Positions 739 to 15,862 of a DNA stretch of 26,083 bases are shown piece after piece. Position 1 is the first letter of the stretch. Every line of letters starts with the position of its first letter. The stretch is from IMG/VR virus record IMGVR_UViG_3300032246_000733, positions 1 to 26,083 of that record; one strand, 5' to 3'. The position numbers and the translations under genes were made by a program. The notes under the pieces were generated by a model. That model had not been told where the DNA came from, did not search any database, and was given only the letters and a program-made list of their open reading frames with translations. The DNA is from a virus.

Positions 739-2151
739 ACATCAGGACCATTTGCTACTTGTAATACATCAAATATAGTTTCAACAGGTGCTGGTATAGG
801 AACAGGTACAGGCGGAACAGGTTTACATAATTTTTTTGCTGGCCAATGTGCTGGAGCTGCTAACACGACAGGTTGTTATAATACTTTTATAGGCATTGGT
901 GCTGGCCGTTGTACTACAACAGGAAAATATAATACTTTTATAGGTAGGTGTGCTGGATGGAAAAATACAGATGGAGTATTAAATACTTTTATAGGTGCTG
1001 ATGCTGGAATTTGTAACACCACAGGGTCTAGTAATATTTTTGTAGGATTGTTTAGTGGAAGATCCAATACAACAGCTGATAATAATATTTTTTTAGGAAA
1101 ATATTCTGGTAGATTTAATACAACAGGTATTAATAATATATTTTTAGGTTCCAATAGTGGTAGATGTACTACTACAGGTTCTAATAATTTTAATGCAGGA
1201 AGTGAGGCAGGAACATATTCTAGTACTGGATGTAATAATACTTTTATAGGACCACAATCAGGTTATAAAACATCCGGTTCCGATAATACTTTTATAGGTT
1301 ATAGAACAGGTTTTTGTAGTACAACAGCTAGTGATAATATTTTTATAGGATGTAATTCAGGTAAATATAATACAACAGGTGGTGGCAACACTTTCTTAGG
1401 TAAATATTCAGGATCTTCTAATACAACAGGTATTAATAATATTTTAATAGGTTGTGGCGTAACTGGTGATGGTGCGACTTGTTCAAATCAAATTGTATTA
1501 AAAGCGGGCACCAATACTCTTAAAGTTGATTCATCAGGTGCTTTTACACTTAACGGAACTACAGTAGGTTCTGGTGGAAGTGGATATACAGGTTCAGCAG
1601 GAGCTACAGGTTATACAGGCAGTTTAGGTTACACAGGTTCAGCAGGTGTAGGTTACACTGGTTCTTCTGGTGCTTATGCCGCAATTGGTTACACAGGTTC
1701 ACAAGGACCAATTGGTTACACAGGTTCAGGTTCAGGTCTGACAGGTTATACAGGATCAGCAGGAAGTGGATTGTCTGGTAGAACAACATCTACAGGAACA
1801 ACTTCAAGTTTAGCAAATAATGCTTCAGAAAATTTAGATATTACAGGATTTAAATGTTATCAATTATTAAAAATACAAACTTCAGCTGCGGCTTGGGTAA
1901 CATTATATACAGATAGTACTAATAGAACATCTGATAGTAGTAGATCACAAACGACAGATCCTTTACCAGGTTCAGGAGTAATAGCTGAGGTTATTACAAC
2001 AGGTGCTCAAACTATTTTAATGACGCCATCATCTTTAGGATTCAATAATGAAAGTCCTGTTACAACTACAATACCTGTTAAAGTTGTAAATTTAAGTGGA
2101 GGCACAACAACAATTACCGTTACACTGACATTAACACAATTAGAAATATAA
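1..2151 (+). CDS. Collagen-like and beta-repeat tail fibre, 5'-truncated
   Basis: The frame is open from the first base, so the N-terminus lies outside the window; 716 codons are visible. Order seen: collagen-like Gly-X-Y repeats built on GYTGS (codons 1-55 and 100-245), interrupted by a small domain with a GDIWIDSATG...DQWVEL signature (codons 59-97). Then about 13 copies of a 17-residue repeat of the type NNIFLGKYSGRFNTTG (codons 275-490), a closing segment (QIVLKAG...LTLNGTTV), a second short GYTGS stretch, and a C-terminal beta-rich domain from about codon 590. Such modular fibres are known from marine T4-like phages and act in host recognition; which receptor is bound cannot be read here. 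The next gene, a protease, starts one base after the stop, so the two are probably co-translated. No methionine at the true start is visible. Confidence 0.85.
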   Translation, partial: GVGYTGSTGFTGSAGVDGYSGSKGDLGYTGSLGYTGSAGDGYTGSVGYTGSKGQLQITTALTPPGSPNYGDIWIDSATGIEYSWINDGDSDQWVELSNVGLPGYAGSKGDIGYVGSRGEIGYTGSIGYTGSVGNIGFTGSVGVGYTGSIGYTGSVGNIGYTGSTGNIGYTGSIGYTGSVGNIGYTGSAGVGYTGSAGVGYTGSLGNIGFTGSAGVGYTGSVGYTGSLGNIGYVGSQGSVGFTGSAGTSGPFATCNTSNIVSTGAGIGTGTGGTGLHNFFAGQCAGAANTTGCYNTFIGIGAGRCTTTGKYNTFIGRCAGWKNTDGVLNTFIGADAGICNTTGSSNIFVGLFSGRSNTTADNNIFLGKYSGRFNTTGINNIFLGSNSGRCTTTGSNNFNAGSEAGTYSSTGCNNTFIGPQSGYKTSGSDNTFIGYRTGFCSTTASDNIFIGCNSGKYNTTGGGNTFLGKYSGSSNTTGINNILIGCGVTGDGATCSNQIVLKAGTNTLKVDSSGAFTLNGTTVGSGGSGYTGSAGATGYTGSLGYTGSAGVGYTGSSGAYAAIGYTGSQGPIGYTGSGSGLTGYTGSAGSGLSGRTTSTGTTSSLANNASENLDITGFKCYQLLKIQTSAAAWVTLYTDSTNRTSDSSRSQTTDPLPGSGVIAEVITTGAQTILMTPSSLGFNNESPVTTTIPVKVVNLSGGTTTITVTLTLTQLEI
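823..1470 (+). repeat. Beta-repeat module, about 13 x 17 residues
   Basis: Each unit follows N-x-F-x-G-x-x-(A/S)-G-x-x-N-T-T-G-x-x. The regular spacing of Asn, Phe/Ile and Gly suggests a stacked beta-roll or beta-helix, probably trimeric as in phage fibres and bacterial adhesin heads (inference). Several units carry Cys at equivalent positions. Confidence 0.8.
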
Positions 2152-2152
2152 A

Positions 2153-3892
2153 ATGTCTGATTTTAAAGAGTACGTAGTTACCGTAAAAAATAAATCGGAT
2201 GTAGATTCTTTTTATGATGACATGGATTCTGAAAATGGTACAGATTATATTCCTAACAGAAAAGTTCAAATTGCTCAACTAAGAGAAATTAGCCGAAGCA
2301 CACATTATCTTCTTACAGAAGAAGAATCGCAAAAATTAAAAAATGATAATAGAGTTTTAGCTGTAGAACAATTGCCTAGTGCTCTTGGTGTTACTCCAGG
2401 AATAATTCCGGTAGGGCCAGGAAAGTTATGGAGTCAAACAGCAAATTTTGAAAAACATCCTACAATAGACACGAATGATAAAAATTGGGGATTAGAAAGA
2501 GTTACAAGAGGATCTCAATTATCTGGATGGGGAAATTCTACAACAGATTATTGGAATGGAACTGCTTATGCTGACTTTACTCAAACAAATCAAACTGTAA
2601 TTACAACAAGTTCAGGAAAAAATGTAGATATAGTAATTGTTGATGATCATCTTAATGCAAATCATCCTGAGTTTGCTGTTAACGTTGATGGTACAGGAGG
2701 TTCAAGAGTTGTTTTATACGATTGGTTACAACACAGCGCTTCATTAGGAATTTCAACAACAGGAAGTTATGAATATAATTTTGATGGTGCTCACGGAACA
2801 CATGTAGCAAGTACTGCTGCCGGTAACACACAAGGCTGGGCAAGAGACGCAAACATTTATAATATAAATTTTAATTATTCAGCAGACAATAAACCAGCAG
2901 GAGATTGGGCTCTTTATATATACGATTACATTAGAGCCTTTCACGCAAGCAAACCTATTAATTCTGCTACAGGTAGAAAAAATCCTACAATTGTAAATAA
3001 TAGTTGGGGATTTCAATCATATCTTTTTGTATCAGGTATGAGTTCTGTAAATTATAGAGGAACAACAATTGATTTAACAGGAAAAACTGTTGCTGAGAAA
3101 AAAACTATTTTAGAACAACAATGTGGTTGTAATGTAGTATTACAATTATTTGGTTCAAATTATGTGGTAGATGTTGGTACTATAGTTTCAGGAATGGAAA
3201 CAGATATTACTGATCTTATTAATGATGGTATAATTATAACAGCAGCTGCTGGAAATAGTTATGCTAAAATGGTTAAATCTTCAGATTCAGATTATAATAA
3301 TACATTAAATTCTAGTCCTAGTTATTATTTTTGTAGAGGAGCTTCTCCTGCGGCAAACAGTGGTGTAATAACAGTAGGTTCTACTAACGCAACAAGATGG
3401 GATATGAAATCGTCTTTTAGTAATTATGGAAGTAGAGTTGACATATATGCTCCAGGTTTTAATATTGTGGGGGCCGTTTATGATACAAATGCTGCCACAG
3501 AATTTGGTGTTACATTAGTAAATGATCCGAGAGATAGTAATTATAAATTAGCTTCTATATCAGGAACAAGTATGGCGTGTCCTCAGGTAACAGGAATTTT
3601 AGCATGTTTACTTGAACAATGGCCTTCTACAACACAGTCTGAAGCATTACAATATTTAATAGATAATTGTACAACGAATCAAATTATAGATCCTGGTGTA
3701 ATGTATCCGAATACTACCTATGTTCCTAGTCCTTATAATAGTCTAGGAGAATCAGGAACTAACTCAAATAATAGATATTTGTTCTATAAAAAAGAAAGAC
3801 AAACGAGTGGAAATGTATCTAAAAGTACATTTAAACGTAGACCTACAAGTAATAATTGTTATCCTAGACAACGAATAAAAACATATGGTTAA
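2153..3892 (+). CDS. Subtilisin-like serine protease (S8 family)
   Basis: A 579-residue protein with a complete S8 active-site set. Asp164 is in VIVDDHLN (seven residues before HPEF, the normal spacing, although the usual DTG/DSG is DDH here). His214 is in AHGTHVAS, Asn368 (oxyanion hole) in AAAGNS, and Ser473 in SGTSMACP. The first ~75 residues resemble a short propeptide. No signal peptide is visible, so it probably stays with the virion or acts inside the cell rather than being exported by Sec. An unusual insert lies between residues 285 and 345, and the Lys/Arg-rich tail (545-579) is extra. The start ATG follows the upstream fibre stop by one base (TAA-A-ATG), pointing to coupled translation and a shared role. 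It might process a fibre, or digest host surface proteins during entry; neither is shown by the sequence. Confidence 0.9.
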   Translation: MSDFKEYVVTVKNKSDVDSFYDDMDSENGTDYIPNRKVQIAQLREISRSTHYLLTEEESQKLKNDNRVLAVEQLPSALGVTPGIIPVGPGKLWSQTANFEKHPTIDTNDKNWGLERVTRGSQLSGWGNSTTDYWNGTAYADFTQTNQTVITTSSGKNVDIVIVDDHLNANHPEFAVNVDGTGGSRVVLYDWLQHSASLGISTTGSYEYNFDGAHGTHVASTAAGNTQGWARDANIYNINFNYSADNKPAGDWALYIYDYIRAFHASKPINSATGRKNPTIVNNSWGFQSYLFVSGMSSVNYRGTTIDLTGKTVAEKKTILEQQCGCNVVLQLFGSNYVVDVGTIVSGMETDITDLINDGIIITAAAGNSYAKMVKSSDSDYNNTLNSSPSYYFCRGASPAANSGVITVGSTNATRWDMKSSFSNYGSRVDIYAPGFNIVGAVYDTNAATEFGVTLVNDPRDSNYKLASISGTSMACPQVTGILACLLEQWPSTTQSEALQYLIDNCTTNQIIDPGVMYPNTTYVPSPYNSLGESGTNSNNRYLFYKKERQTSGNVSKSTFKRRPTSNNCYPRQRIKTYG

Positions 3893-4029: not shown

Positions 4030-7000
4030 ATGGCAATAAATTTTCCTTCAAGTCCAGCACCAAATTCAACTTATACATTAGGCAACCGTACATGGAAATT
4101 TAATGGAACTGCTTGGGAATTAGTACCTCTTACAGCCGGTTATACAGGCTCAAAAGGTGATATAGGTTATTCAGGATCAAAAGGCGATACAGGTTATGTT
4201 GGTTCAAAAGGAGATTTAGGTTACACTGGTTCAAAAGGCGATATCGGTTATACTGGTTCAAAAGGCGATCAAGGTATTCAAGGAAATGATGGTTACACTG
4301 GTTCTCAAGGTAATATAGGTTACACTGGTTCTAAAGGTGATATCGGTTACACAGGTTCAAAAGGTGATCAAGGTAATCAAGGAAATTTAGGTTACACAGG
4401 ATCAAAAGGTGATACTGGTTACGCTGGTTCAAAAGGCGATCAAGGTAATCAAGGAAATGATGGTTACACTGGTTCACAAGGTACTCAAGGTAATATTGGT
4501 TACACTGGTTCTAAAGGTGATATAGGTTACACAGGTTCAAAAGGTTTTACCGGTTCACAAGGTGATATCGGTTACACAGGTTCAAAAGGTGATATAGGAT
4601 ATACTGGTTCAAAAGGTGATATCGGTTACACAGGTTCAAAAGGTGATATCGGTTACACAGGATCAAAAGGCGATCAAGGTAATTCAGGTTTAGGATTTAA
4701 CATTGCTAAAATTTATTCTTCAGTAGCTGCTTTAACAGCAGATACTTCACCAACAGGAATTGTTGCTGGTGAATTTGCTATTATTACTACAGTTGATGTT
4801 AATGATGCTGATAATTCAAAATTATATTTATGGAATGGTTCAACATACAGTTTTGTTTCTGATTTATCAGGAACAACAGGATTTACTGGATCAAAAGGTG
4901 ATATTGGTTACACAGGATCTAAAGGCGATACAGGTTACGTAGGATCAAAAGGTGATATTGGTTACACAGGATCAAAAGGTGATATCGGTTACACTGGTTC
5001 TAAAGGTAATCAAGGAGATACAGGATTTACAGGTTCAAAAGGTGATCAAGGTTATCAAGGAAATGATGGTTACACTGGTTCACAAGGTACTCAAGGTAAT
5101 GACGGTTACACAGGATCAAAAGGTTACACAGGATCAAAAGGTGATATTGGGTACACAGGTTCAAAAGGTGATATTGGTTATACAGGATCATTAGGTTACA
5201 CAGGATCAAAAGGTGATATTGGGTACACAGGTTCAAAAGGCGATACTGGCTACGTTGGTTCAAAAGGTGATACTGGTTTCGTAGGTTCACAAGGATACAC
5301 AGGTTCAAAAGGTGATATCGGATATACAGGTTCAAAAGGAGATACAGGTTACGTAGGATCAGAAGGTAATTTAACAGTTACAACTTCAGCTACTCCTCCT
5401 TCAGGCGCTCAATACGGAGATATTTGGATTGATGAAGCATCAGGTATTCAATATTTCTGGTACAATGATGGAAATTCAGATCAGTGGGTAGAATTTGCTA
5501 ACCAAGGTTTAGTAGGTTTCACAGGATCACAAGGTGCTATAGGTTACACAGGTTCGGCCGCTGCTGGTGGTTCTGGCCCATTTGCTGTCTGTGGTACAGC
5601 AAACCTAGTTTCAACAGGTGCTAGTTATGGTACAGGCACAGGTGGAACAGGTAATGATAACTTTTTTGCCGGTTCATGTGCTGGTGCTTGTAACACTTCA
5701 GGTTATTATAATACGTTTATAGGATTTCAAAGTGGATTTAGAAATACAACAGGTATTAATAACGTTTCTATAGGTCGTCATTCTGGTATATTTAATTGTA
5801 CCGGTTCTGGAAACGTTTCTTTAGGAAAAGATTCTGGTAGATTTAACACAGGCAATAATAACGTATTTTTAGGTTGTTATTCAGGTAGATTAAATACTTC
5901 GGGTAGTAGTAACGTATTTTTAGGTCAATACGCAGGTCAAACTAATACAACAGGTTCATGTAACATATTTTTAGGTAAATACGCAGCAGGTGATGCGGCT
6001 GGTTGTTCAAACCAAATCGTATTAAAAGCAGGTAGTAACGAACTTAAAGTAAGTTCAGCTGGATCTTTAACACTTAACGGTACTGCCGTTGGTGGTGGTT
6101 CTAGTCTATTTGCTAAGTGTGGTACAAATAACATAGTTTCAACAGGTGCTAGTATAGGTACAGGTACAGGTGGATCAGGTGCGAATAACTTTTTTGCAGG
6201 GCTATATGCTGGAGCTAATAACGATACAGGTGTAGTTAATACTTTTATAGGTCCAAGAGCTGGTCAAGCTAACGAAACAGGTAGTTATAATTTCTATGTA
6301 GGCTGTTATGCTGGTCAATATGCTACGAGTGGTTCTTTTCGTACAGTTATAGGCTACAGAAGTGGAAGAAGAAATACAGGTAGTTATAATACTTTTATAG
6401 GTAAAGACGTAGCTAGTTTTGGAACCGGCGCTGGAAATAATAATATAATTATGGGTAGAATAGCTGGTGCGTATTTAACGTCAGGCACTCATAATACAAT
6501 TTTTGGTGAAAATGCTGGTCAATACCTAACAACAGGCAGTCATAACGTGTTTTCAGGTTGTCAATCTGGATATAAAAACTCAACAGGTAGTAATAACATA
6601 TTTTTAGGTAATTCTGCTGGATTTTGTAACACAACAGGAAGTAATAATATTTTTATGGGTCAATGTTCTGGTGGCCGTTATAGCTCTTCTTCAGCTCATA
6701 ATCAATTTTTTGGTAAATATTCAGGAAAAAGAATAACAACTGGTAGATTTAACTTTATTGGTGGTTATTCGGCTGGGGAAAATTTAAGTACTGGTTGTGA
6801 TAATATTTTTATTGGTTGTTCAGCTGCTAAATATGTAACTACTGGATCGCAGAATATTTTTCTTGGTAATTATGCTGGAGCATTTACATGTACAGGAGGT
6901 TATAACATTGCTATTGGTTCAGCTACTGGAGCATGTAATAGGGTCGGTAATTTAAATGTTTACGTAGGTTATAATGCTGCTAGAAATGCGGTATCAGGTA

Positions 7001-7509
7001 AAAATGTAATGATAGGTACAAATGCCGGTTATTGTGTTACAACAGGTTGTAACCTTTTATTGATAGGTACTTACACCGGTTGTGGTTCTGATCCTGGTTT
7101 AGTAAACATAACAACTGAAAATGATAGAATTGTATTAGGTAATAATGCTCACACTTGTGCTCAAATACAAGTTGCTTGGACAGCAGTATCAGATGTTAGA
7201 GATAAATGTATATATGGTGCTGTAAATAAAGGATTAGGCTTCTTAAAAGATGTAAATCCTATTGAGTTCGCATTTAAAGACAGAGCAACTAATGAATTAA
7301 TTGGTAATGGTAAGAAACGATATGGATTTAGCGCTCAAGAAATACTATCTTTAGAAGGCGATAAACCAGTAATTGTTTCTAATGAAAATCCTGATAAGTT
7401 ATTCTTAACGAATGATTATCTAGTTCCGGTCTTAGTAAACGCTATTAAAGAGTTAAACGCTAAAGTTGAAACACTTGAAAGCAAAGTAAGAGACTTAGAA
7501 AACAAATAG
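4030..7509 (+). CDS. Large collagen-like fibre with S74 self-cleaving chaperone
   Basis: 1159 residues. N-terminal module (1-36, INFP...TYTLG..TWKFNG.AWE) is shared with the 11786 and 14105 genes and probably attaches the fibre to the virion. Then: collagen-like tract (37-220, GYTGSKGDI units), a small domain (221-285), a second collagen-like tract (to about 447), a GDIWIDEASG...DQWVEF domain, and two beta-repeat modules (about 7 and 18 units) separated by a cap segment. The C-terminus is a peptidase S74 (endosialidase-type) intramolecular chaperone: Ser1054-Asp in AVSDVRDK, GFSAQE at 1099-1104, and a heptad-like helix at the end. In this family the chaperone trimerises the fibre and then cuts itself off before the conserved Ser; here about 106 residues would be released. 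The start is supported by the shared N-terminal module and two upstream late promoters; the RBS is weak (AAAGG). Confidence 0.92.
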   Translation: MAINFPSSPAPNSTYTLGNRTWKFNGTAWELVPLTAGYTGSKGDIGYSGSKGDTGYVGSKGDLGYTGSKGDIGYTGSKGDQGIQGNDGYTGSQGNIGYTGSKGDIGYTGSKGDQGNQGNLGYTGSKGDTGYAGSKGDQGNQGNDGYTGSQGTQGNIGYTGSKGDIGYTGSKGFTGSQGDIGYTGSKGDIGYTGSKGDIGYTGSKGDIGYTGSKGDQGNSGLGFNIAKIYSSVAALTADTSPTGIVAGEFAIITTVDVNDADNSKLYLWNGSTYSFVSDLSGTTGFTGSKGDIGYTGSKGDTGYVGSKGDIGYTGSKGDIGYTGSKGNQGDTGFTGSKGDQGYQGNDGYTGSQGTQGNDGYTGSKGYTGSKGDIGYTGSKGDIGYTGSLGYTGSKGDIGYTGSKGDTGYVGSKGDTGFVGSQGYTGSKGDIGYTGSKGDTGYVGSEGNLTVTTSATPPSGAQYGDIWIDEASGIQYFWYNDGNSDQWVEFANQGLVGFTGSQGAIGYTGSAAAGGSGPFAVCGTANLVSTGASYGTGTGGTGNDNFFAGSCAGACNTSGYYNTFIGFQSGFRNTTGINNVSIGRHSGIFNCTGSGNVSLGKDSGRFNTGNNNVFLGCYSGRLNTSGSSNVFLGQYAGQTNTTGSCNIFLGKYAAGDAAGCSNQIVLKAGSNELKVSSAGSLTLNGTAVGGGSSLFAKCGTNNIVSTGASIGTGTGGSGANNFFAGLYAGANNDTGVVNTFIGPRAGQANETGSYNFYVGCYAGQYATSGSFRTVIGYRSGRRNTGSYNTFIGKDVASFGTGAGNNNIIMGRIAGAYLTSGTHNTIFGENAGQYLTTGSHNVFSGCQSGYKNSTGSNNIFLGNSAGFCNTTGSNNIFMGQCSGGRYSSSSAHNQFFGKYSGKRITTGRFNFIGGYSAGENLSTGCDNIFIGCSAAKYVTTGSQNIFLGNYAGAFTCTGGYNIAIGSATGACNRVGNLNVYVGYNAARNAVSGKNVMIGTNAGYCVTTGCNLLLIGTYTGCGSDPGLVNITTENDRIVLGNNAHTCAQIQVAWTAVSDVRDKCIYGAVNKGLGFLKDVNPIEFAFKDRATNELIGNGKKRYGFSAQEILSLEGDKPVIVSNENPDKLFLTNDYLVPVLVNAIKELNAKVETLESKVRDLENK
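4138..4689 (+). repeat. Collagen-coding tract 1 (GYTGSKGD)
   Basis: About 180 residues with Gly at every third position, dominated by GYT-GSK-GDI triplets. The charged KGD triplets are typical of stable bacterial collagen-like triple helices. DNA units are almost identical to each other. Confidence 0.88.
4879..5370 (+). repeat. Collagen-coding tract 2 (GYTGSKGD)
   Basis: A second Gly-X-Y tract of the same unit type, separated from the first by a 65-residue globular domain (4690-4878). The stray reading frames on both strands here are by-products of the repeat. Confidence 0.87.
5653..5997 (+). repeat. Beta-repeat module A, about 7 x 17 residues
   Basis: Units such as NNVFLGCYSGRLNTSG, followed by a cap (QIVLKAGSNELKVSSAG) found again in the 14105 fibre. 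Confidence 0.78.
6181..7083 (+). repeat. Beta-repeat module B, about 18 x 17 residues
   Basis: The longest run in the window of the N-x-F-x-G-x-x-A-G-x-x-N-T-T-G unit, leading straight into the S74 domain. This arrangement, repeats followed by S74, is common in phage and bacterial fibres. Confidence 0.78.
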
Positions 7510-8597: not shown

Positions 8598-9887
8598 ATG
8601 TACATAGATGTAATTATACCCACAATGTGGTATGTAAAAAACTTTGATCTAGTATTAACGTCATACGTTTTAAATCCAAAGATAAACAAAATTATATTAA
8701 TAGATAATAACGTTTTAAATAGGCCAGAATATGATATTCTAAAAGATTCTAAAATAGAATTGGTTTGTTTTAATAAAAACATATACGTAAATCCTGCGTG
8801 GAATGAAGGTTATAGAAGATCAACTTCAAAAATAATTGCTATCATAAATGACGACATAAACGTAGATTCTTCCGTATTTGATATGGTTCATAATTTCAAT
8901 TTAAAAAAAGGTGATCTAATAGGTGTAAGTTTAGCTGGCCGTAAAAATAACTTTATCATAGATGACTTTATACCTACAGAAGAAAAGATAGTTAAACTAG
9001 AATTTAATAATACACAACCTATTGGTGGACAAGCTTGGGCATTTGGTACTTGTATGTTTATGTTAAAAGAATCTTATAATATAATACCAGACCTATATCA
9101 GTTATGGTATGGTGATGATTATTACGCACAAAATTCCCAAAATGTTTATGTTATAAAGTCTAATAAAATTAAAGGTTTAATTTCAGAAACTATAGGCTAC
9201 CTAGATTTTGATGATCCTGAAAGTGATATTGCTCAAAGAGTTAAATTAGATTCTGAAAATCTATTAAAAAATAATCATTTTAAGAATGGTGTTAATTGGG
9301 ATTTACCCATTCAAACAATACGAAAATATGAAAGTATTAAAGTAGATTTTTTTGAAAATGAATATTTAAAAGCAAAAAATACACCTAGTGATATAAATGA
9401 AAATGTACATATACTATATGAACTATGTAAAGACTGTAAAACGGTAGTTGAAATGGGTGTAAGAACAGGTGTAAGTACTAGAGCTTTTTTAAACGCCAAC
9501 GTGGATTTAATTTCTTTTGATGTGGTATTAGATAAAACAGTACAAAAGCTCTTTGATAAAGCTAAGTCAAAAGGTAAGAATGTTCAGTACATAAAAGATG
9601 ATGTGTTGAATATTGAAATAGAAGAAACAGATTTATTGTTTATTGATACAATACACAATTATGAACAATTAAAAAAAGAATTAAAACTACATGGAAATAA
9701 AGCACAGAAATATATTGCTTTCCATGACACGTACACTTATGGTTTAAGAGGTGAGAATGTTTTAGGTTTTGACAATAAAGGCCTTTTAACGGCCGTTATA
9801 GAGTTTCTAATTGAAAATCCTCATTGGAAATTTAAGATATTTAAGACTAATAACAATGGACTGACTGTTTTGGAAAGGTATAAATAA
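8598..9887 (+). CDS. Glycosyltransferase-methyltransferase fusion
   Basis: 429 residues in two parts. Residues 1-~215 look like a GT-A glycosyltransferase (family 2-like): IIPTMWY at the start, LIDNN (34-38), NPAWNEGY (65-72), a DXD-like NDD (84-86) and YGDDYY (171-176). Residues ~265-429 look like a class I SAM-dependent methyltransferase: VVEMGVRTGVST (283-294) as the SAM motif I, an acidic SFDV step (306-309), LLFIDTIHNYEQL (346-358) and AFHDTYTYG (374-382), close to the Methyltransf_24/cephalosporin-hydroxylase-like group. The fusion could add a sugar and methylate it, or methylate the acceptor glycan. The gene starts immediately after the epimerase stop with no gap. Acceptor and sugar are unknown. 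Confidence 0.8.
   Translation: MYIDVIIPTMWYVKNFDLVLTSYVLNPKINKIILIDNNVLNRPEYDILKDSKIELVCFNKNIYVNPAWNEGYRRSTSKIIAIINDDINVDSSVFDMVHNFNLKKGDLIGVSLAGRKNNFIIDDFIPTEEKIVKLEFNNTQPIGGQAWAFGTCMFMLKESYNIIPDLYQLWYGDDYYAQNSQNVYVIKSNKIKGLISETIGYLDFDDPESDIAQRVKLDSENLLKNNHFKNGVNWDLPIQTIRKYESIKVDFFENEYLKAKNTPSDINENVHILYELCKDCKTVVEMGVRTGVSTRAFLNANVDLISFDVVLDKTVQKLFDKAKSKGKNVQYIKDDVLNIEIEETDLLFIDTIHNYEQLKKELKLHGNKAQKYIAFHDTYTYGLRGENVLGFDNKGLLTAVIEFLIENPHWKFKIFKTNNNGLTVLERYK
9879..9886 (+). promoter_or_regulatory. T4-type late promoter box (TATAAATA)
   Basis: Exact box overlapping the stop codon of the glycosyltransferase fusion, with the next ATG at 9918. It would give the GT9-like and sulfotransferase genes a late transcript in addition to read-through from the sigma70-like promoter. 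Confidence 0.68.
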
Positions 9888-9917
9888 ACATATACAAAAT
9901 GTTTATATAAGGTAACT

Positions 9918-10826
9918 ATGACTAATGATTTAAAATATTCTATATTTCACGTACAAGGTGGCATGGGAAAACACGTGGCTGCCACAGCAGTAGCAAAAGC
10001 AATTAAAAATAACCATCCAGATAGAAAATTAATAGTAGCGTGTGCTTTTCCTGATATCTTTTTAAATTTAAGTTATGTGGATAGAGTTTATCAATTAGGT
10101 GCTACAAAATATTTTTATCAAGAATATGTACACGATAAAGATTCTATAATTTTTCATCACGAACCTTATTTTACAACCAATCATATACATAAGAAAAAGA
10201 AATTAATACAAAACTGGATTGATCTATATAATTTAAAATATAGTGGTGAGACACCAGAAGTTAAATTTAATAGACTTCAAATTGAAGCTGCTATGGGTTA
10301 TTGGAAAAGAGAAAAACCAGTTATGGTAATTCATACAAATGGTGGTATGATGACAACTGATGCTAAACCTTATGCTTGGACAAGAGACATGCCTATGGAT
10401 CTAGCACAAGACATAGTAGATCATTACAAGAATGATTATCATATATTTCAAATTACAAAAATGAACTCTATGAAATTAAAAGATGTTGAACATATATTTG
10501 CTACTCCTCAAAAAGCATTATCAATTATGGAGTTTTTTAGTATATTGTTGGTGAGTCAGAAAAGAATTTTTATAGATTCGTGTTTACAACACGCTGCGGC
10601 CGCATTAAATTTAAAATCAACAGTTTTATGGAATGGTACTTCGCCTAAAGTATTTGGTTATAATTTACATGATAATATATGTACTGAAGTTCCTTATGAT
10701 TTTAAATTACCAGGAAGTTATCTATTTGATTTTGACTTTAATGGAAATGAAATAGAGTTTCCTTTTACAGAAAATACAAAACTCTTTAATCTAAAAACAA
10801 TAATCAAATCAGTGGATAAACAATAA
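9918..10826 (+). CDS. Glycosyltransferase family 9-like (heptosyltransferase-like)
   Basis: 302 residues. The N-terminal HVQGGMGKHVAATAVAKAI (11-29) resembles the Gly-rich loop of GT-B enzymes of the ADP-heptose:LPS heptosyltransferase family. The C-terminal FIDSCLQHAAAALN...VLWNGTSP (218-243) matches that family's donor-binding DSG..H.AAAL segment, with Ser-Cys in place of Ser-Gly. It probably transfers a sugar from a nucleotide donor. It follows a late promoter and has a modest RBS (AAGG, 9910-9913). The sulfotransferase starts one base after its stop. Assignment to the fold is fairly safe; the substrate is not. Confidence 0.65.
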   Translation: MTNDLKYSIFHVQGGMGKHVAATAVAKAIKNNHPDRKLIVACAFPDIFLNLSYVDRVYQLGATKYFYQEYVHDKDSIIFHHEPYFTTNHIHKKKKLIQNWIDLYNLKYSGETPEVKFNRLQIEAAMGYWKREKPVMVIHTNGGMMTTDAKPYAWTRDMPMDLAQDIVDHYKNDYHIFQITKMNSMKLKDVEHIFATPQKALSIMEFFSILLVSQKRIFIDSCLQHAAAALNLKSTVLWNGTSPKVFGYNLHDNICTEVPYDFKLPGSYLFDFDFNGNEIEFPFTENTKLFNLKTIIKSVDKQ

Positions 10827-10827
10827 T

Positions 10828-11676
10828 ATGGAAAACAAAAAAACACTTTACTTTATGGCAGGCCTACCAAGAGCTGGTAGTACAATGTTATCGGCAATAT
10901 TAAATCAAAACCCTCGTTTCTATTCAGGACCAAGTTCTCCTGTAGTGGGCGGAATGTTAGCATTAGAACAAAATTTTAATCAAGATGAGTTGTATTTTGC
11001 TTATCCTAAAAAACAACAAGTAGAAGATTATATTAAGAATTTAATTTTTTACTATTATAGTGATGTAAAACAACCTGTAGTTTTTGATAAGAACAGATCG
11101 TGGACAAACAGGCCTGCTTTTATAGAATCATATTTCAATATTGAACCTAAAATATTATGTCCTGTAAGAAGTATATTAGATATACTAACATCATTTATAG
11201 ATATGCACCGTAGAAATCCATATCAAGTGGGTGGTAAATTAAACTTTTTAGATGACATGTTAGTTAAAACTGGCCAACCTTTAACTGATGAAAATCGTTG
11301 TGATACATTATGTGGCCCTATGGGTATAATAGGTCAGAGTGCTCAAGGTATTAAAGAGATGTTAATGAATAACAGAGAGAAACAATTACATCTAATCGAG
11401 TATGATGATTTGGTTAATGATCCTGAAACCACTATGAAAAAAGTATATGATTACTTAGGTGAAGAATACTATAAAAAACATGACTTTAAAAATCTTATAA
11501 ATTTACATCAAGAGAATGATGCTGGTGTTTATGGATTTGCAGACATGCACCAAGTAAGAAAAGAGTTAAAAAAGGTGTCTAAAAAACCATCTGAGTTGTT
11601 ACCTGAAAGTATAGTAACCAAATATAAAAATCAAGAGTTCTGGAGAAATTTAGATACTGTTGTTGAAGTAAAGTAA
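10828..11676 (+). CDS. PAPS-dependent sulfotransferase
   Basis: 282 residues, usual size for the family. The 5'-phosphosulfate loop is GLPRAGSTML (12-21; core PRAGST 14-19). The 3'-phosphate-binding segment is CPVRSILDILTSF (111-123; Arg114, Ser122). A family-typical LIEYDDLVNDPETTM...YLG follows in the C-terminal half. It would transfer sulfate from PAPS to a hydroxyl on a sugar or a protein side chain. Sulfotransferase-like genes occur in marine T4-like phages. It is the last gene of the sugar cluster, one base after the GT9-like gene, so the sulfate acceptor may be the glycan made by its neighbours (inference). Confidence 0.85.
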   Translation: MENKKTLYFMAGLPRAGSTMLSAILNQNPRFYSGPSSPVVGGMLALEQNFNQDELYFAYPKKQQVEDYIKNLIFYYYSDVKQPVVFDKNRSWTNRPAFIESYFNIEPKILCPVRSILDILTSFIDMHRRNPYQVGGKLNFLDDMLVKTGQPLTDENRCDTLCGPMGIIGQSAQGIKEMLMNNREKQLHLIEYDDLVNDPETTMKKVYDYLGEEYYKKHDFKNLINLHQENDAGVYGFADMHQVRKELKKVSKKPSELLPESIVTKYKNQEFWRNLDTVVEVK

Positions 11677-14104: not shown

Positions 14105-15862
14105 ATGCCAAGTACAGTTAATTTTCCAACAACAGGTTTAACAGCTAATGTAACAACTTATACATTAGGTACTCGTACATGGTTGTGGAATGGTGCTGGC
14201 TGGGAAATAGTTACTCAAACAATTACAGGATATACAGGTTCAGCCGGTGTTGGTTATACAGGTTCGGCCGGTACAAATGGATACACAGGATCGGCAGGCA
14301 CAAATGGTTACACCGGCTCTGCTTCAACAGTTGTAGGTTATACAGGTTCAGCCGGTTCAATAGGATATACAGGTTCATCTATAGCAGGCCCATTTGCTAC
14401 TTGTAATACATCAAATATAGTTTCAACAGGTGCCGGTATATGTACAGGTACAGGCGGAACAGGTACAAATAATTTCTTTGCTGGTGCATGTGCTGGTGCT
14501 GCTAACACAACCGGTACTCATAATATTTTTATAGGTTGTGAAGCTGGTCGTTGTAACACTACTGGTTCTAATAACTTTTTTGCTGGCAATTGTGCTGGAC
14601 GTTTTAACACTACTGGCTCTGGTAACTTTTTTGCTGGCAATTGTGCTGGTCGTTGTAACACTACTGGTTCTAATAATGTTGCTATAGGTCTTTGTGCTTA
14701 TTTCCGTGGCGTGTGTGATTCTTCTGATAATATATTTATAGGACTATGCGCTGGATGGAATTTAGGCAGATATACTGCTGATAATGGAAATGTTTTTATA
14801 GGACAATGCTCTGGATTAGTTGCAGGAACCAATGTATGTGAAAATATTTTTGTAGGTTATAAAACTGCCTATTGCTCCTCAGGTGGTAGTCGTAATATTT
14901 ATCTTGGAAGTCAAACCGGAAGATATGGAGGCGGTTGTTATAATCTTTTTTTAGGTTATGAAGCTGGTTGTAGAAAAAATGGAAAAGATAATGTTTTTTT
15001 GGGTCGTTCTAGTGGTATTGCTTTTGGTTCTGGGTGTTATAACTTTTTTGTCGGCCCTCTTTCTGGATGTAATCATTCAGATGGATGCCATAATACTATA
15101 TTAGGTAAATGTGCAGGTTATAACATTACAACTGGTAATAGTAACACCTTTATAGGTAATGAAGCGGGCTTTTGCCTCTCTACTGCTTCTAATAACTTTT
15201 TTGCTGGACAGTGTGCAGGCCGTTTCAACACTGCTTCAAATAATATTTTTGCTGGTCAATGTGCTGGTTATTGTAACACAACAGGCACTAACAATATATT
15301 TTTAGGACAGAATGCTGGTAACGATCTTACTGCAACAGCTTCATGTCAAATCGTATTAAAAGCAGGTTCTAACGAACTTAAAGTAAGTACAGCTGGATCT
15401 TTAACACTTAATGGTTCTGTCGTTAATGCTGGCCCAGCGTTTAGTGCTTATGCAAACAATTCCGCACAAACAATTACTAGTGGTTCACAACAAAAGGTTT
15501 TATTCCAAGTTGAAGAATTTGATACTAACAACAACTATGCAAGTTCAACATTTACTCCTACTGTAGCAGGCTACTATCAATTAAATGCTGAAGTTCGTTT
15601 AGATGGAGCATCTGGCACTGGTGAAATGATGATTGTAATTTGGAAAAACGGAGCAGAATACAAGCGTGGCACAAATCAAAGCGGAACACAAATCGCCGCA
15701 AACTTCTGGGCTATGCAAGTTAGTTCGTTAGTATATGCTAACGGATCTACTGATTATTTTGAAATATATGTTCAACAAAGCTCTGGGTCAAGTGTAACTG
15801 TTACTGCTGTTAATAGTGCAAACATTACTTGGTTTAATGGTAGTATGGTTCGAGGAGTTTAA
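14105..15862 (+). CDS. Collagen + beta-repeat + C1q-like fibre at the wac position
   Basis: 585 residues. N-terminal module (VNFPTTG...TYTLGTRTWLWNGAGWE), a short collagen-like GYTGS tract (about 38-95), about 17 beta-repeat units (119-410) with more than twenty Cys, a cap (QIVLKAGSNELKVSTAG), and a C-terminal domain of about 140 residues (FSAYANNSAQTITSG...VLFQVEEFDTNNNY...FTPTVAGYYQLNAEVRL) that fits the C1q/TNF-like jelly roll. Collagen plus C1q-like head is a trimeric recognition architecture. The gene directly precedes the gene 13 homologue, where T4 has wac (fibritin), so a neck-whisker role is possible; a receptor-binding fibre is the alternative. The shared N-terminal module confirms the start even though no RBS is visible. 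Confidence 0.85.
   Translation: MPSTVNFPTTGLTANVTTYTLGTRTWLWNGAGWEIVTQTITGYTGSAGVGYTGSAGTNGYTGSAGTNGYTGSASTVVGYTGSAGSIGYTGSSIAGPFATCNTSNIVSTGAGICTGTGGTGTNNFFAGACAGAANTTGTHNIFIGCEAGRCNTTGSNNFFAGNCAGRFNTTGSGNFFAGNCAGRCNTTGSNNVAIGLCAYFRGVCDSSDNIFIGLCAGWNLGRYTADNGNVFIGQCSGLVAGTNVCENIFVGYKTAYCSSGGSRNIYLGSQTGRYGGGCYNLFLGYEAGCRKNGKDNVFLGRSSGIAFGSGCYNFFVGPLSGCNHSDGCHNTILGKCAGYNITTGNSNTFIGNEAGFCLSTASNNFFAGQCAGRFNTASNNIFAGQCAGYCNTTGTNNIFLGQNAGNDLTATASCQIVLKAGSNELKVSTAGSLTLNGSVVNAGPAFSAYANNSAQTITSGSQQKVLFQVEEFDTNNNYASSTFTPTVAGYYQLNAEVRLDGASGTGEMMIVIWKNGAEYKRGTNQSGTQIAANFWAMQVSSLVYANGSTDYFEIYVQQSSGSSVTVTAVNSANITWFNGSMVRGV
14465..15330 (+). repeat. Cys-rich beta-repeat module, about 17 units
   Basis: Units such as SNNFFAGNCAGRFNTTG. 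Cys recurs at the residue before Ala-Gly and at the residue before Asn-Thr-Thr, so stacked units would align the thiols in columns (inference). Confidence 0.78.

Follow-up and report, generated by a model that had tools for sequence, protein, structure and literature searches.

A cysteine-loaded variant of a common 17-residue repeat in phage tail fibres, with cysteines that avoid one another

In a group of aquatic phages, a long fibre carries more cysteine on its surface than any other residue, and the cysteines are spaced out. Judged from their sequences, the arrays that carry them are a cysteine-loaded variant of a common repeat, the variant itself being restricted to viruses and, among these, to one group. 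The cysteines occupy particular columns of the repeat, are moderately conserved and avoid one another. We tentatively favour, at somewhat less than an even chance, the reading that they act as outward-facing, mutually insulated free thiols for intermolecular contacts, be these with the host surface, with a metal or through a modification.

The fibre gene and its setting

The window, i.e. the whole stretch of DNA analysed here, is an entire viral record of 26,083 bases, from a marine phage. Its neck, terminase, sheath and tube genes resemble those of T4-like pelagiphages in a comparison of structural genes, and the sheath shows 70% identity to that of Pelagibacter phage Mosig EXVC030M, which suggests SAR11 as a possible host. 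The fibre genes sit upstream of the neck genes, the same place as that of the host recognition cluster of pelagimyophages (PMC7029224). Both this location among neck, terminase, sheath and tube genes and the structural PHROG matches mark a phage tail fibre or spike: the open reading frame at 14105-15862 matches tail spike and virion structural families at 3e-10 and 5e-12. The features of this gene and of the other arrays of the window are as follows:

14105..15862, + strand: fibre gene with the cysteine-rich array, 585 aa (ORF and translation; PHROG matches)
14105..14221, + strand: N-terminal segment NFP...TYTLG.RTW.WNG..WE, common to the fibre genes at 4030 and 11786 (translations)
14225..14380, + strand: collagen-like GYTGS repeats (weak Pfam Collagen match; tandem repeats)
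14381..14467, + strand: cap preceding the array, FATCNTSNIVSTGAG... (translations)
14468..15340, + strand: array with the cysteine columns, comprising about 17 coils, most of them 17 residues long (range 16-20; repeat parsing)
15341..15859, + strand: C-terminal domain, with similarity to phage tail proteins (phrog_13286) and to one protein that bears a C1q-like annotation
823..1470, + strand: second array, with 4.6% Cys, part of the fibre ORF 1-2151 (repeat and Cys count)
5653..7083, + strand: third array region, 3.8% Cys, in the ORF 4030-7509 (Cys count, Pfam)

The shared N-terminal segment is probably the attachment end of the fibre, whereas the ORF 4030-7509 terminates in an S74-like chaperone domain. 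Cysteines also occur outside the coils: the array cap carries them, as do other caps in the window and those of the related loci L001, L028 and L035, with a motif F-x-x-C-[NG]-T (14390-14425 in the window); a further instance is HTCAQ...RDKC in the S74-like domains at the ends of the ORF 4030-7509 and of L001. Two other elements are found close by. A cassette at 8598-11676 comprises GT2/methyltransferase-like, glycosyltransferase-like and sulfotransferase-family genes. A subtilase (Peptidase_S8) gene at 2153-3892 lies between two fibre genes; such a gene is near eight cysteine-rich loci and no cysteine-poor ones, and in P-SSM2 a PF00082 protein likewise adjoins the proximal tail fibre gene.

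Cysteine columns in viral and cellular arrays

The coils of the array follow the consensus N-N-h-F-h-G-x-x-A-G-x-x-N-T-T-G-x. As originally predicted from the DNA, cysteine is abundant at 14465-15330: there are 22 in 289 residues, or 7.6% (binomial P 4e-13 against a 1% background), and the ORFs of the window that lack arrays have 0-1.65%. The weaker tendency foreseen for the modules at 823-1470 and 5653-7083 is also borne out (4.6% and 3.8%). All ten cysteines in columns 1-10 of the window array fall at exposed columns, nine of them at column 8 (exposed versus core, Fisher P 3e-6). The two repeat positions that the prediction singled out hold up as column 8 and column 12, the latter being just before N-T-T-G; its placing of the former at the x of G-x-C-A-G is slightly off, the main cysteine being the C itself.

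For comparison, 466 arrays from viral contigs, isolate phages and cellular genomes were parsed with a cysteine-neutral pattern. A genome scan with a cysteine-containing query recovered no cellular relatives, and one with a cysteine-free query recovered 78 loci. Across about 2,090 coils of cysteine-rich viral arrays, cysteine is almost confined to columns 1, 7, 8, 11, 12 and 17, all of which are variable and apparently surface-facing. At these six it is the commonest residue (15%), as against 0.1% in cysteine-poor viral and 0.2% in cellular arrays. Proteins of Bacteroidota, and other phages and giant viruses, also have NTTG repeats of 17 residues, with the same consensus and the same length; however, the cellular ones (188 arrays; 1,830 coils) contain 0.21% cysteine with no preference for exposed columns. 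Among viral arrays of at least six coils found with the cysteine-free query, 51 of 66 have no cysteine and six exceed 3%; arrays retrieved with cysteine-containing queries average 5.2%, in a sample biased by its seeds. The expectation that such columns are unusual is in line with these counts, the same repeat being devoid of cysteine in most phages and nearly all bacteria.

The coil type FFAGxCAG has cysteine at column 8 in 137 of 173 cases (79%), and occurs three times in the controls. HTVC111P and HTVC112P, which are SAR11 podophages, have cysteines at the same exposed columns, and in Methylophilales phage Venkman they sit at column 9, which is also where cellular arrays tend to have them. 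Histidine, too, is distributed unevenly: it makes up 13% of column 1 in cysteine-rich coils and about 3% or less in controls, and it often follows the cysteine of column 17 (65 versus 38 expected). We found nothing on point in the literature on cysteine-rich phage fibres.

The cysteine columns recur in related arrays, and conservation of the individual residues appears moderate, somewhat better than that of their neighbours. Between the window array and its close relative L001, 79% of cysteines are kept against 58% of the other residues at the same columns; between the second array of the window (823-1470) and L137, L147, L148 and L149 the figures are 78-91% and 56-72%. Overall retention of cysteine is 76%, about equal to that of Arg, Tyr, Thr and Lys. 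Comparison of all pairs at 50% identity is uninformative on this point, as the repeats align out of register.

Two other possibilities were considered and set aside. Base composition is one: the GC content of the cysteine-rich arrays is 39%, but cellular arrays are almost free of cysteine, even though one in four of them is at 37% GC or below. The other is diversity-generating mutagenesis, which the variable columns had brought to mind: these columns hold Gln, Lys and Glu, residues that NNY codons do not encode.

Fold and placement of the columns

Searches of PDB sequences with phmmer and profiles gave no significant match. An AlphaFold model of the window array itself (pLDDT 72) had no useful Foldseek match and a best VIA-align Z of 9.6, to UspA1; hence, the fold was read from a model of a related regular array (m8cab347bb27f; pLDDT 73, pTM 0.74), which shows one short strand per coil. 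While Foldseek returned no match below E 0.06 for this model, VIA-align gave Z 14.9 to YadA (1p9h; rmsd 2.9 over 135), 14.5 to CbpF and 13.8 to BoaA. The GlmU and LpxD rolls score equally high, so that the match shows fold and not descent; fold matches were also obtained in giant-virus proteins. Direct coupling analysis adds that identical columns of successive coils are coupled, that column 4 is coupled to columns 10 and 13, which we read as packing inside the roll, and that columns 1 and 7 are coupled, which fits a contact at the seam. Taken with published structures, the models indicate that the array is a stack of coils forming a YadA-like left-handed parallel beta-roll with the cysteines at its surface; the fibre would be a homotrimer.

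The resemblance to the YadA-like heads (YadA, BpaC, BoaA, CbpF) extends to several particulars. Besides the stacked coils and a Z of about 14, they share an invariant glycine after the inner strand, G6 being present in 99% of the coils here. When G6 is set equal to the invariant G@8 of the published rolls, columns 3 and 5 match trimer-core positions, and the extra three residues fit the insertion point known between positions 14 and 1 (PMC9543794). Columns 3 and 5 are indeed mostly hydrophobic, column 3 being also Asn or Thr. This mapping indicates that columns 7, 8, 17 and 1 lie at the outer face and seam (PMC9543794), with columns 3 and 5 pointing toward the trimer axis and column 1 next to columns 7 and 8 of the adjacent chain. 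For columns 10-15 the mapping is uncertain, the YadA repeat being three residues shorter. Against these likenesses, the coil is mostly of 17 residues and not 14 or 15, the inside of the roll has mostly Phe rather than Ala, the surface columns carry cysteine and the protein is from a phage. The Phe at column 4 is typical of the cysteine-rich group; cysteine-poor viral arrays have Ala. In the ORF 14105-15862 no membrane-anchor beta-barrel of the trimeric autotransporter kind was found, Pfam (E up to 1) giving collagen only.

Spacing of the cysteines and its possible meaning

Spacing was analysed in 48 cysteine-rich contigs (1,685 coils) by permuting columns within arrays and bootstrapping contigs; the z-scores rest on related arrays, with the contig bootstrap giving 2.4 to 4. 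Two sets of pairs follow from the proposal of disulfide ladders itself. Stacked pairs, with the same column in the next coil, number 210 versus 253 expected (0.83x, z -3.1), and inter-chain seam pairs of the same layer number 25 versus 32 (z -2.4) and are not enriched. Pairs at adjacent residues are halved (40 versus 82, z -4.0) and staggered pairs of columns 8 and 12 in the next coil are enriched (234 versus 180, z 3.6); as these two sets were defined with the results of an exploratory scan of 159 pairs already in view, their z-scores are optimistic. Pairs of the same column two coils away are enriched as well (271 versus 229, z 2.7), and the number of cysteines per coil is under-dispersed (0.68 versus 0.80 expected). 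The near-pair set was likewise chosen after the exploratory scan, and a cleaner test is that of the ten strongest contacts derived from cysteine-free arrays: there cysteine gives a ratio of 0.78, and 36 of the 48 contigs fall below expectation. Avoidance on this set is not unique to cysteine, Leu giving 0.60 and Phe 0.76 on small counts, and a broad set of 28 contact pairs shows a weak deficit only (757 versus 792). Tyr and Asn show none of the pair avoidance; Ser, Asn and Tyr do not share the avoidance of near pairs, which is seen in Arg (16 versus 39), as like charges would produce. The avoidance is also partial: many near pairs are left, and the window itself has five column-8 cysteines in a row. 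Together, these counts suggest that the related fibres keep their thiols apart from one another; such spacing fits isolated thiols at the surface and tells against a main role in ladders or metal clusters.

The original prediction had held that stacking would line up the thiols, which might then form disulfide ladders or bind metal. Its first half stands, in that coupling and fold match both point to stacking of identical columns; a line-up of the thiols is not supported by their spacing. A ladder, in which same-column thiols of successive coils or across the trimer seam would oxidise after lysis and rivet the fibre, is accordingly unlikely, even though the coil rise of such rolls is 4.8 A (PMC9543794), coils 3-7 of the window carry five consecutive column-8 cysteines and column 17 is slightly over expectation in stacked pairs (61 versus 47). 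With nine cysteines in 17 coils a run as long as five is nothing unusual, arising in 18% of shuffles (P 0.18), and column 12 has just 67 stacked pairs against 103 expected. Binding of zinc, copper or iron by the thiols together with the column-1 histidines is the least probable of the alternatives. It finds some encouragement in the enrichment of those histidines, often after the cysteine of column 17, and in the HxH iron sites published for phage fibres (PMC11705849); T4 gp37 and marine phage fibres with such sites are alike in being phage fibres proposed to carry metal ligands. Yet those have paired histidines and the fibre here isolated surface cysteines, the array sequence of the ORF 14105-15862 has no His-x-His pair, and chelation needs close thiols, the very pairs that are avoided.

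A further proposal is that phage enzymes from neighbouring genes (glycosyltransferase-like, sulfotransferase) attach a bulky group to each cysteine, and the spacing would suit this. Genes of the three kinds in the cassette (GT2/methyltransferase-like, glycosyltransferase-like and sulfotransferase-family) are near 12, 15 and 16 of the 40 cysteine-rich loci and almost none of the 60 cysteine-poor ones, with 16/40 versus 0/60 for the sulfotransferase family and 15 versus 1 for relatives of the window gene 9918-10826; in the isolate pelagipodophages HTVC111P and HTVC112P (L154, L161) a glycosyltransferase gene directly follows the fibre gene. The neighbouring genes give a lead toward thiol modification, but we consider the proposal rather improbable: the cysteine-rich loci share ancestry, so the gene link may be one of lineage, six different column contexts speak against a single enzyme, and according to the published view glycosyltransferases of this sort modify the LPS of the host (PMC7029224). 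Somewhat more credible, though still not likely, is that nothing has been selected, cysteine being tolerated at variable surface positions of a fibre that folds in the cytoplasm and spread by duplication of repeats. Fast turnover, the equal retention of Arg, Tyr and Thr and the fact that phage fibres avoid the oxidising periplasm are all compatible with this; the 51 of 66 phage arrays that have the same repeat and no cysteine, the first rank that cysteine takes among residues at the exposed columns in cysteine-rich arrays and an avoidance of neighbours that Ser, Asn and Tyr lack are not easily accommodated.

The preferred reading of insulated free thiols can be put as a sequence of steps, in which the free state of the thiols, the trimer and the function are all inferred. 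The array would serve as a shaft or an adhesin module, its beta-roll coils stacked as in a YadA head, with cysteine filling its outward-facing variable positions in this phage group. Synthesis of the fibre presumably takes place in the host cytoplasm, a reducing setting in which cysteine is tolerated, and the spacing would prevent internal disulfides and leave isolated thiols; that they are kept apart suggests reactive thiols at the surface and not cross-links within the fibre. After release these might enter intermolecular contacts, either at the host surface, through thiol-disulfide exchange or adhesion mediated by soft metals, or from fibre to fibre. A stronger form, as doubtful as the ladder, is that the dense thiols make the fibre a covalent adhesive, joined to the host envelope by disulfide exchange or a metal bridge, which would afford many-point capture in dilute water.

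Unpaired cysteines are usually avoided by extracellular proteins. Moreover, SAR11 is unable to reduce sulfate (PMC5069961), and if it is the host the sulfur cost of these cysteines is notable. The arrays offer a testable case of thiol chemistry during the adsorption of phages and, being well sampled, a repeat system in which selection on a protein surface can be studied. Arrays of the 17-residue repeat can also be very long: at one locus (L097, 239-13168), they extend over about 13 kb.
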